From Acidimicrobiales bacterium (GTDB lineage Bacteria; Actinomycetota; Acidimicrobiia; Acidimicrobiales; MedAcidi-G1), in assembly GCA_022452035.1 (NCBI GenBank), contig JAKURV010000023.1:1-34540 (forward strand): a stretch of DNA of 34,540 nucleotides. The letters run 5' to 3'. The notes under the pieces were generated by a model. It did not search any database. It saw only the letters and a program-made list of their open reading frames with translations, and had not been told where the DNA came from. A program made the translations under genes and the position numbers. This document shows positions 16,143 through 19,733 of this stretch, piece after piece; positions within the stretch are counted from its first letter, which is position 1, and the number at the start of each line of letters is the position of its first letter.

Positions 16143-16173
16143 ATCAACAAATCGTGATCCGCTATGACGGGGC

Positions 16174-16179
16174 TAAGTT
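16174..16179 (+). promoter_or_regulatory. Leaderless -10 (TAAGTT) for amidohydrolase
   Basis: TAAGTT, an 8-nt spacer, then ATG at 16188. This favours that ATG over the in-frame ATG at 16164, which lies upstream of the hexamer. Confidence 0.5.
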
Positions 16180-16187
16180 CGGGTGCC

Positions 16188-17201
16188 ATGGCCGGGCGCG
16201 AGATGTTCGCATTCCAAGGGCCAGAGTGGTACTCGCAGGTTGATGAGGAGGTCATCGAGCCCGAACTGGCAATCGTTGATCCCCACCACCACCTGTGGCG
16301 CCTCCCCGACTCCGAGTACCTGCTCGCCGACCTGTGGGCTGACACCGGGTCGGGACACCGGATTGAGCAGACGGTCTTTGTGGAGTGCGGCGCCTCCTAC
16401 AGTTCCAGTGGTCCGAAACACCTCCGACCAGTGGGTGAAACCGAGTTCGTGGCCAGAGTGGCCGCCGAGTCCGCTGATGGCCCCGGGGCGCGTATTGCCG
16501 GAATCGTGGCCCATGCCGACCTCCGGCTCGGCGGCCAGCTTTCCGAGGTGCTCGACGCCCACGCCGAGGCCGGCCGGGGCCTGTTCCGCGGCATCCGCCA
16601 CGCCGGATCTCACACTGAGCACCCGGAGATGCTCTTCATCCCTGGCAGGGCGCCGGCCAACCTCTTCTCCGACCCGTCCTTCCGGCAGGGGGTAAGGCTC
16701 CTAGGCGCTCTCGGCTACACCTACGAGAGTTGGCACTACCACTACCAGCTGGGCGAGTTCACTGACCTGGCCCGATCTGTACCGGAGACCACGATCATCC
16801 TCGACCACTTCGGAACCCCGCTGGGGGTGGGCCCGTACGAGTCGCAGCGCGACGACGTCTTCGCCGCCTGGAAGGCCGACGTCACAGAGTTGGCCCAATG
16901 CCCCAACGTAGTAGCGAAGCTGGGCGGTTTGGCCATGCCCGACAACGGGTTCGGCTGGCACCTGGCAGACCGTCCACCCACGTCCGACGAGATCGTCGAG
17001 GCCCATCAGGACTATTTCCTTCACACCATCGACTGCTTCGGCCCGGACAGGTGCATGTTTGAGAGCAACTTCCCGGTTGATCGCCTCTCGGTCTCTTACC
17101 GGGTGCTGTTCAATGCGTTCAAGAAGATGGTCGCCAACTTCAACGATGGCGAACGCTCGGCGATGTTCTCCGGCACGGCGGCACGGACCTATCGGCTCTG
17201 A
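16188..17201 (+). CDS. Amidohydrolase family protein (amidohydrolase_2)
   Basis: A 337-residue TIM-barrel metal hydrolase or decarboxylase of the ACMSD/lactonase-like branch. The metal motif is DPHHHLW near the N-terminus; later blocks are VFVECGASY, the GIVAHADL strand, ILDHFGTPLG (barrel His) and FESNFPVD (barrel Asp). Relatives hydrolyse lactones or decarboxylate aromatic acids. Together with the amidase upstream it suggests breakdown of an imported organic compound. An earlier in-frame ATG (16164) would add eight residues. Confidence 0.88.
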   Translation: MAGREMFAFQGPEWYSQVDEEVIEPELAIVDPHHHLWRLPDSEYLLADLWADTGSGHRIEQTVFVECGASYSSSGPKHLRPVGETEFVARVAAESADGPGARIAGIVAHADLRLGGQLSEVLDAHAEAGRGLFRGIRHAGSHTEHPEMLFIPGRAPANLFSDPSFRQGVRLLGALGYTYESWHYHYQLGEFTDLARSVPETTIILDHFGTPLGVGPYESQRDDVFAAWKADVTELAQCPNVVAKLGGLAMPDNGFGWHLADRPPTSDEIVEAHQDYFLHTIDCFGPDRCMFESNFPVDRLSVSYRVLFNAFKKMVANFNDGERSAMFSGTAARTYRL

Positions 17202-17319: not shown

Positions 17320-17751
17320 GTGCCTAGCGACAGCCAACTGCGGACAATGAACAGGCTGCACCGCGGCCTCCTGAAGGTCAGCGGTGGACGGTTCGGGTGG
17401 ACAGCAGCCAACATGCCGGTGCTCGAGTTGACCACAGTCGGTCGAAAGTCGGGCAAACCGAGGTCGGTCATGTTGACGTCGCCGCACCGGGACGGGGACG
17501 TGATCGTGATCGTCGCCTCCAAGGGCGGAGAAGACACCCACCCAGCCTGGTTTCTCAACCTGAGGGAGAACCCGCAGGTCGTCGTCACCACGAGGGACTC
17601 CCACGAACGCCAGATGGTCGCCCAGGTCGCGTCGCCCGAGAGCCGGGACCGGCTGTGGCCGATCGTGACCGGGAAGCACACCAACTACGCCGGCTACCAG
17701 GAGAAGACGGATCGCGAGATCCCCCTGGTGCTGCTCCAACCAGCGGACTGA
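17320..17751 (+). CDS. Deazaflavin-dependent nitroreductase-family protein (Ddn-like)
   Basis: A 143-residue split-barrel protein of the F420-binding Ddn/nitroreductase family, almost confined to actinobacteria and a few other F420 makers. Visible signatures are LELTTVGRKSGKPRSV, the glycine-rich VASKGGEDTHPAWF segment with its NLRENPQV continuation, and the C-terminal GYQEKTDREIPLVLL. Family members reduce quinones or activated double bonds with F420H2. The neighbouring linalool-dehydratase-family gene starts 87 bp downstream, so both may act on the same unsaturated substrate. Confidence 0.88.
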   Translation: MPSDSQLRTMNRLHRGLLKVSGGRFGWTAANMPVLELTTVGRKSGKPRSVMLTSPHRDGDVIVIVASKGGEDTHPAWFLNLRENPQVVVTTRDSHERQMVAQVASPESRDRLWPIVTGKHTNYAGYQEKTDREIPLVLLQPAD

Positions 17752-17837
17752 GATCAGAGGCTTCGAGTTGAGCCCTCATGCCGGGAGACGGCCCCATCCG
17801 GCATCGTCTCCTGGAAGAAGCCCCGGAGGTGGTCACA

Positions 17838-19328
17838 GTGCCCTTAAGTGAGCCAGCCGCACTGGACGACCGGTCACTGGGCTGGCTCCGCTACCTCCAC
17901 CGCAAAGCCACCACTGCGGATGACTGGGACCGCGAGGGGCGCCCTCACCCCCACTGGGACAACATCACCGGTGCGCCGATGCTGTCTTGGCACCGCTTCG
18001 ACCTGATCGACTCGAGTTACGCAGTGGCGTTGATGGCCGATCGCACACCCGCTTGGCGCGAGGTCTACTCCGAGATCCTGGACCAACTGGTTACCCGCCA
18101 CACGTCGTGGTGGGCAGCGTCGGATTGGCTGACCCAATTTGGCTCCGATCCCGACCGGGCGAACTACCCCGAGGCTTGGCGCTCGATCATCCCTGCCAAT
18201 GCCTGGGGCGAATATGACGTCCCGGGTTGGACGGCAAACGGGATCGAGCCCTACGGGGTGCAAATGGACCCCATAGCGGCGGACGGCATGCTGTTTTTCA
18301 AGGGGTTTTTCGGCCTCCTACTTGGATTACACCGCTACGTCTCCAACGACGAGCAATGGAACCAACCATTCGAGATGATCCGGGACGGAGAGCACTCATT
18401 CACTTGGACCTACTCGGAGATCTCCGCCCATCTGGCCAACCAGTGGCGGAACCGCCCAATTGGCGTGCACTGCGAAAACACCAAAATCTGGCCCTATTGA
18501 CTGAGCGGCGCTGGCCTCGGTCTGAGGCTGCACGACCGGCTCCACGGAACTGATCACCACGGCGCCTTCGATCAGTGGTGGGAGTACGCCACCGATAACT
18601 ACATCACCTGGCAAGACGGCCGACCAGTTGCCATGGATCTCTACTACGACCCAGTCATCGACGAGCACGTATCGACTCCACTGGCGCTGATGGCACCGGT
18701 CTGGTACTTGGCACCGCAGAGATCCGACATGGCCAAGTCGGCTTGGGAAATGGCCGCCACACTCACAGGACTGTTCGGCGATGGTGACCTGGTCGGACTG
18801 GACGACCCGAACCTGGCGTCTCTCTTAGCTATGCAAACCGGCGATTTCACCGACGGCGAGGCCAAAACACGGCTTTGGGAGTACCTCGACGCGACCCACG
18901 AGCCTCAGTGGGATAACGACCTCGGCGAATTCACGTTCGGATTTGGCCTCGGCGAACCCCACCCCCGAGGCCAACTAAACGCCCGGGCCATGGCCGGCTG
19001 GGTGTGTACGCCGGGAGCTTGGAGCCGCATCTTCAATGATCCGAACCTGGGGAAGTTCGACGGACCGACGGTCAGCGGTCTCGACTTCCCGCGCGTCGCC
19101 ATGAGCGAAGCCTGGTGGGACGGCGCCGTCCTCCACCTCACCGCTCATGCCCAGAACTCGTCGGTTGCCAATACCCAGACCTCGATACACGTCGAGGGGC
19201 TGCCATCGGACGACGGATGGGGTCTGGTTCAACCAACTGGCGGAACCACGCCTATCGCGGTGTCAGCAGGAGCTAGCCAACTCGAGCTGGTGGTCAACGG
19301 CGGCCACTACGAACTCCGCCAACTGTGA
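17838..19328 (+). CDS. Linalool dehydratase/isomerase-family selenoprotein (in-frame TGA read as Sec)
   Basis: A 496-residue protein if the TGA at 18498-18500 is read through. Both halves are in the same frame and join into one family-length sequence: NITGAPMLSWHRFDLIDSSY, PGWTANGIEPYGVQ, FFKGFFGLLLGLH, HCENTKIWPY-(TGA)-LSGAGLGL, then LYYDPV and LAPQRSD. In relatives as I recall them the position after KIWPY is Cys. Cys212 and the TGA codon (221) are nine apart, the separation of the two active-site cysteines recalled for Castellaniella linalool dehydratase/isomerase (C171, C180). A SECIS-like hairpin follows at once. The GTG at 17838 has GGAGG 8 nt upstream; the ATG at 17778 is in frame but lacks a ribosome site. 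The substrate is probably a small unsaturated alcohol or a related compound. No sel genes lie in the window. Confidence 0.85.
18498..18533 (+). promoter_or_regulatory. SECIS-like element with recoded UGA
   Basis: UGA is at 18498-18500. The stem pairs 18513-18518 with 18524-18529 (one G-U). If T18512 bulges, C18511-G18530 and G18510-C18531 extend it. The apical loop 18519-18523 is GGTCT. The loop begins 18 nt after UGA. From memory, the E. coli fdhF SECIS has the same GGUCU loop, the same 18-nt distance and a bulged U that SelB recognises. Confidence 0.8.
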
Positions 19329-19436
19329 CGACGCTGCCCGGCTGAAACGCTACGACTAGTAGCCCAATCCGACCGTGTGGTTCGATACCGGGACAGCTAG
19401 CCCAACCAGGGCTTGCCCTGGCAAAGGTGGAATCTC

Positions 19437-19733
19437 TTGTCTCAAACAATTCATGTCGAATTCCCGTGCAACGAAGGTCTCGGGGCAGGACTTGTCGAAA
19501 CTCTGAAATCCGCCCTGGTCGATACCCGAGCCTTTGACGGCTGTGAGTCGATCGAGGTGTACGTCGATGCAGACAAACCCGACACAGTCATCCTTTGGGA
19601 AAAGTTCGCCACCAGGGCCCACCACGAGGCCTACTTGGCGTGGCGTGTCGAAACCGGACTACTCGACATGCTCGCGCCGATCCTGGCTGAAGACCCCAAG
19701 TTTACGTACCTCGACAACCAGCCGGGAGTCTGA
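19437..19733 (+). CDS. Antibiotic biosynthesis monooxygenase (ABM) domain protein
   Basis: A 98-residue ferredoxin-like-fold protein. The pattern ESIEVYVDADKPDTVILWEKF then HHEAYLAWR is the ABM/YgiN signature. Members are small quinol monooxygenases or heme/aromatic oxygenases acting as dimers, but many are uncharacterised. A TTG start at 19437 is preferred: AAAGGTGG lies 7 nt upstream and the protein then begins MSQTIHVEF, the usual family start; the in-frame ATG at 19413 would place eight unconserved residues first. It follows the selenoprotein gene by 108 bp on the same strand. Confidence 0.75.
   Translation: MSQTIHVEFPCNEGLGAGLVETLKSALVDTRAFDGCESIEVYVDADKPDTVILWEKFATRAHHEAYLAWRVETGLLDMLAPILAEDPKFTYLDNQPGV

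Follow-up and report, generated by a model that had tools for sequence, protein, structure and literature searches.

A probable new selenoprotein family related to linalool dehydratase/isomerase in a marine actinobacterium

The gene and its relation to linalool dehydratase/isomerase

The closest described enzyme is the linalool dehydratase/isomerase of Castellaniella defragrans (Ldi or LinD; PF18566; PDB 5I3T/5HLR/5G1U), an (alpha/alpha)6-barrel protein whose catalytic pair, Cys171 and Cys180, is spaced nine residues apart; a third residue, His129, presumably also belongs to the active site. Residue numbers are counted here from the printed chain 7ad2, and agree with the mutant titles C171A, C180A and M125A. 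According to PMC6600392, where they are numbered 170 and 179, the two catalytic cysteines are essential and must stay reduced, their alanine and serine variants are inactive, and the pair is assigned to acid/base chemistry. The second group with which the locus can be compared is that of the known bacterial selenoproteins, in which an in-frame UGA at a conserved catalytic Cys column is accompanied by a bacterial SECIS (bSECIS) hairpin and by SelA, SelB, SelD and tRNA-Sec in the genome. The constraints on this hairpin given in PMC13188914 are a spacing of 16-37 nt after the UGA, a stem of 4-16 bp, a loop of 3-9 nt with a G within its first two positions, and a minimum free energy of at most -7.5. 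The locus described here shares the profile family, the fold and the spacing of the catalytic pair with Ldi, and the in-frame UGA, the downstream hairpin with G at the first loop positions and the machinery with the bSECIS selenoproteins.

The stretch of DNA analysed (the window) covers positions 1 to 34,540 of contig JAKURV010000023.1 of assembly GCA_022452035.1 (Acidimicrobiales bacterium), read on the forward strand; its features are collected in Table 1. The first-pass annotation of this DNA had described, at 17838-19328 (+), a gene free of decay with a single in-frame TGA, flanked on both sides by family-like sequence and placed nine residues past Cys212, as in the Ldi C171/C180 pair, and all of this is borne out. 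Indeed, translation gives a sole internal stop, the TGA of codon 221, with HCENTKIWPY before it, LSGAGLGL and LYYDPV after it, and the frame unchanged. The Pfam profile PF18566 matches residues 142-309, spanning the TGA, with E 9.8e-16 and 58.6 bits (cut-off 26.1). When the protein is aligned to the Castellaniella enzyme by phmmer, Cys212 pairs with Ldi Cys171, and codon 221 shares a column with Ldi Cys180; as this stretch is ungapped, the placing of the latter column is independent of the C written for Sec in the query. Besides Cys212 and the predicted Sec221, the protein has only one further cysteine-type residue, Cys390.

Table 1. Features of the window around the predicted selenoprotein gene
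Position	Strand	Feature	Basis
16164..17201	+	Amidohydro_2 (PF04909)	homologue in fetched flanks of 7 further loci
17320..17751	+	F420H(2)-dependent quinone reductase family (PF04075), 87 nt upstream of the selenoprotein gene	Pfam; similarly placed in L024, L027, L059
17825..17829	+	possible ribosome binding site GGAGG, 8 nt 5′ of the GTG start	sequence, inferred
17838	+	start codon GTG; other possible starts at 17829 and 17778	sequence
17838..19328	+	predicted selenoprotein gene, PF18566 Ldi family, 496 residues, Sec221	translation with TGA as U, Pfam, AF2 model
18471..18473	+	TGC, Cys212, matching Ldi Cys171; TGA in eight homologues	alignment
18498..18500	+	in-frame TGA, predicted Sec221, matching Ldi Cys180	translation, alignment, TGA in 41/50 loci
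18513..18529	+	predicted bacterial SECIS hairpin; 18513-18518 pair with 18524-18529 (6 bp) below the apical loop GGUCU, 18519-18523	comparison
19326..19328	+	terminal TGA stop of the selenoprotein gene	translation
19413..19733	+	antibiotic biosynthesis monooxygenase-like (PF03992)	homologue in fetched flanks of 11 further loci

The AF2 model of the protein (mean pLDDT 91, pTM 0.93), compared with solved structures, is an Ldi-type (alpha/alpha)6 barrel. Its best solved match is Ldi itself (Z 33.4, rmsd 2.6 over 322 residues), the next family following at Z 18.7; the matches beyond Ldi are sugar-acting (alpha/alpha)6 barrels (Z about 17-19), which, on the model, are taken as sharing the fold only. 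Several departures from Ldi are seen: Cys180 is replaced by the predicted Sec, as is Cys171 in some homologues, His129 and Met125 correspond to Phe157 and Phe153, the capping disulfide Cys48/Cys101 is without counterpart, and the model carries an extra C-terminal beta-rich region, past about residue 410, outside the structural alignment. Since His129 and the capping disulfide are absent, the name linalool dehydratase is unsuitable; for the same reasons, together with the change of Met125 to Phe, any chemistry transferred from Ldi is uncertain.

A gene 97.6% identical, with the same TGA, is present in another assembly (L024), and dN/dS between the two is 0.106 before the TGA and 0.109 after it. 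Against five further homologues the ratio is 0.05-0.10 before and 0.15-0.23 after, at dS values above 1. Judged from these ratios, the segment 3′ of the TGA is protein under purifying selection, which appears weaker than that on the 5′ segment in the farther pairs.

Homologues and the hairpin downstream of the UGA

A homologue was detected at E 1e-20 in 23 of 298 genomes of the order, own genome included, and a scan of public genome contigs contributed 36 further loci, bringing the total to 59. Three partial loci in which the catalytic columns are not covered (L021-L023) and six exact duplicates were left out, and 50 loci were compared. At the columns of Cys171 and Cys180, 33 of them have Cys/TGA, 8 TGA/TGA, 7 Cys/Cys and 2 Ser/His; TGA is thus found at the Cys180 column in 41/50 loci, the nine others having Cys (7) or His (2). 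Both outcomes speak for the first-pass annotation, which had given Cys for this column in relatives, as in Ldi, and had proposed a search for orthologues with TGA or TGC at the site. Elsewhere in the matched stretches TGA does not occur, bar the last column, 496, in L034.

In a phylum-wide sample of 396 genomes, a single genome besides the own one (G526) gave a homologue at E 1e-15; it is a Cys/TGA form (L097), additional to the 50 loci. This homologue was matched in two pieces (L097 and L098, G526:C17:1303-2529), perhaps reflecting a frameshift or a missing segment. The records that contain TGA forms are titled Acidimicrobiales, Acidimicrobiaceae, Candidatus Microthrix, Alpha- and Gammaproteobacteria, and Defluviicoccus. 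No relative of the gene was found in the scan of viral contigs, and plasmids searched at the level of near-identity were without a match.

On a tree of 43 rows, built with the two catalytic columns excluded, the Cys180 column changes at least three times, Cys appearing in two separate lineages and His in the Ser/His pair (L019 and L020). The latter forms a long branch within the clade that holds the double-TGA homologues (L009, L011, L013-L018), in which both catalytic columns are TGA, 27 nt apart. From the sequences, selenocysteine is predicted at both catalytic positions of these double-TGA homologues, within the motif GCHUENTKIWPFULAGA. The homologue in L048 (DCYM01000091.1, titled Candidatus Microthrix) clusters tightly with gammaproteobacterial ones and is perhaps misbinned.

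The predicted SECIS hairpin has the form GGNCUC-GGUCU-GAGNCU, with the loop 18 nt past the UGA. In the TGA forms (40 distinct strings from 47 loci), all 240 of 240 pair cells are standard and the loop is GGUCU in 40/40, while the variable pair is CG in 24 strings, UA in 11, UG in 3 and GC in 2. The non-TGA forms, with Cys, Ser or His (8 distinct strings from 9 loci), pair in only 24 of 48 cells, and the loop is GGUCU in one of the eight; likewise, codons 227-229 are always CTC GGT CTG in TGA forms and are variable in the others. The sequence GGUCU also occurs in the loop of the Escherichia coli fdhF element. Across 24 hand-picked strings, none of 500 shuffles came up to the observed covariation score or to the observed count of cells with two-sided change; the covariation is restricted to one pair, and the count of pairs changed on both sides was matched by 458/500 shuffles and the pair types by 77/500.

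The window hairpin falls within the bSECIS constraints of PMC13188914, with its spacing of 18 nt, its GGUCU loop and -10.1 kcal/mol when folded in isolation (z -2.0 against shuffles); an isolated hairpin of the U-A type, from a homologue, reaches -7.1 kcal/mol, slightly short of the -7.5 limit stated there. Within a 38-nt stretch of the window the region folds no better than shuffles (z 0.02), 54-nt stretches folded singly have no consistent stability excess over shuffles, and competing folds occur in some homologues. On these comparisons, it is conservation and covariation, not fold stability, that separate TGA from non-TGA forms. Rfam gave no match on the whole window at the gathering threshold, nor on positions 18440-18640 (E 5), and for this reason the SECIS assignment relies on our own comparison of the homologues. 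A further hairpin, of 6 bp with a 9-nt loop, could serve the first of the two UGAs in double-TGA homologues; it pairs in 48/48 cells over 8 sequences, has no two-sided change and equals the shuffles, and is regarded as a candidate only. The SECIS hairpin, the double-TGA forms and the departures from the Ldi active site had not been part of the first-pass annotation.

Selenocysteine machinery in the genomes

The genome to which the window belongs (G000, 96% complete) contains selA, selB, selD and a tRNA-Sec(UCA), that is, all four of the components that had been proposed for a search in the same genome. SelB has 572 aa, and selA lies directly upstream of its gene; with the NCBIfam profiles they score 287.9 bits (cut-off 242.25) and 387.9 bits (cut-off 267.9), respectively. 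The tRNA-Sec, with anticodon TCA, scores 67.5 bits, the gathering score being 47. The selD gene, which is also above cut-off, carries an in-frame TGA of its own in GAGUGCKLAPGE (L093, G000:C16:39537-40460), and its product is predicted from this sequence to be a second selenoprotein of the same genome, similar in this respect to the protein studied here and belonging to an unrelated protein family. Many genomes, among them G000, have weak tRNA-Sec matches around the gathering score, and 5/14 control genomes pass it; for this reason, only strong matches were counted.

SelB is over the curated cut-off in 21/21 genomes with a TGA form that were searched, including 5/5 of those reached from TGA loci of proteobacterial title. 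Within the order it was found in 16/16 TGA genomes, against a background of 162/298 sampled genomes (hypergeometric P 4.1e-5, relatedness ignored), and from the latter figure selenocysteine use appears to be widespread in the sampled order. In two Cys/Cys genomes of the order, G194 (89% complete) and G283 (77%), neither selB nor selD passes the cut-off, and the best tRNA-Sec matches, 47.5 and 46.0 bits, are close to the gathering score of 47. SelB over cut-off is also seen outside the TGA genomes, namely in G152 and G040, which carry the Ser/His form, and in six genomes of the same family without a detected homologue. Among the genomes reached from Cys-form loci, 4/5 have selB (those of L048, L049, L054 and L056, and not that of L050); for one of these genomes, G669, the entry record shares its WGS project with the TGA-form locus L044. 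The TGA form is accompanied by the machinery in these searches, and the machinery without the TGA form also occurs.

Proposed chemistry, gene context and alternative readings

The conserved TGA, the alternation of Cys and Sec at its column, the SECIS hairpin and the complete machinery all speak for the selenocysteine reading that the first annotation had put forward. From this sequence evidence, it is very probable that the gene product is a selenoprotein and a member of the Ldi (PF18566) family, with Sec specified by UGA codon 221. SelB carrying Sec-tRNA(Sec) would read the codon as selenocysteine, the insertion being directed by the hairpin with the GGUCU loop 18 nt downstream. In the pocket of the Ldi-like barrel, the Sec221 selenolate and Cys212 would replace the Cys171/Cys180 pair of Ldi, and may take part in a hydration, elimination or isomerisation, either by transferring protons or as nucleophiles. 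The pKa of a selenol is near 5.2, compared with 8.3 for a thiol (PMC13188914), and Sec221 could represent a ready selenolate base or nucleophile next to Cys212. By analogy with Ldi, chemistry of this type is rather probable for the Sec221/Cys212 pair. The wider proposal, of a family of Ldi-barrel selenoenzymes whose selenium transfers protons or acts as a nucleophile on an organic substrate, outside redox chemistry, with a double-Sec dyad and a hairpin for each UGA in one lineage, has in our opinion about an even chance of being correct.

Gene neighbourhoods vary between clades. A gene of the arginine-deiminase family (PF02274) adjoins the selenoprotein gene in 13/36 contig-scan loci (e.g., L055:151-1566), about 20 nt or less upstream in 11 of them and about 70 nt or less downstream in 2, these distances being approximate since they were taken from match starts and a nominal end. 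In nine loci of another clade (L039-L046, L058), a phosphotriesterase-family gene is found directly downstream; in L045 the latter is followed by an ORF for a FlK-like thioesterase (PF22636). Neither a PF02274 nor a phosphotriesterase-family gene lies beside the selenoprotein gene in the window. The differing neighbours suggest that the gene is used in different operons.

Among the alternatives, the one that survives best, which we hold to be possible although rather unlikely, accepts the selenoprotein and takes Sec221/Cys212 as a redox pair forming a selenylsulfide, or as a metal site, in an oxidoreductase or detoxifying enzyme rather than in a lyase or isomerase. Many prokaryotic selenoproteins resemble thiol oxidoreductases or carry redox motifs, as reported in PMC13188914; moreover, homologues with both positions predicted as Sec exist, Ldi His129 is not conserved, and a gene of the F420H2-dependent quinone reductase family is adjacent in the window, L024, L027 and L059. 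Against this reading, the modelled fold is clearly the Ldi-type (alpha/alpha)6 barrel, the equivalent Ldi pair must stay reduced and is assigned an acid/base role (PMC6600392), and a Pfam scan of 20 neighbour proteins gave no thioredoxin-type partner.

Decoding of the TGA as some other amino acid, by code reassignment, a suppressor tRNA or a Cys tRNA with a UCA anticodon, would also explain why the protein plainly runs on past the TGA, and the Cys at this column in Cys-form homologues would fit with it. However, 19/22 hand-listed ORFs of the window terminate with TGA, which is therefore the usual stop there, and the genome has tRNA-Sec, selA, selB and selD; the hairpin, furthermore, is intact in the TGA forms and broken in the others, and such decoding is considered very improbable. 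It is equally improbable that the TGA is a real stop, with a functional unit ending at codon 220, accompanied or not by a restarted ORF of 231 residues: this ORF exists mechanically, from the ATG at 18633, but the Ldi domain extends across the TGA, invariant columns are found among the residues between the TGA and that ATG, and the Cys-form homologues are uninterrupted proteins comparable in length, with 492-543 aa from the match start (L008, L048-L050, L056). An error of sequencing, or a nonsense mutation that arose recently in a gene undergoing decay, needs only the one base that separates TGA from TGC or TGT, and is refuted by the same TGA in 41/50 loci from many assemblies and by the purifying selection downstream of it, leaving it a negligible probability.

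The first-pass annotation had also supposed that selenocysteine at an active-site cysteine of the Ldi family would be new. In agreement with this, neither PF18566 nor linalool dehydratase is present in Table 1 of PMC13188914, a May 2026 inventory of 119 prokaryotic selenoprotein families and subfamilies; NCBIfam 20.0 has no match to the window protein at E 0.1, and literature joining linalool dehydratase with selenoprotein or selenocysteine was not found in searches whose scope left out most subscription journals and bioRxiv preprints. Within the searches and the inventory covered, the gene appears to represent a selenoprotein family not described before and, among the Ldi proteins, a new form.

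A reading with the standard code would cut such proteins at the TGA, and the window gene was in fact listed as two ORFs. With its Cys, Sec and double-Sec predicted forms, the family represents a natural series in which it may be asked what an enzyme gains from selenium when acid/base chemistry is the role assigned to its homologue. As for the organism, a marine actinobacterium very probably uses selenocysteine, the rare 21st amino acid, at the catalytic-cysteine site of an enzyme related to Ldi.
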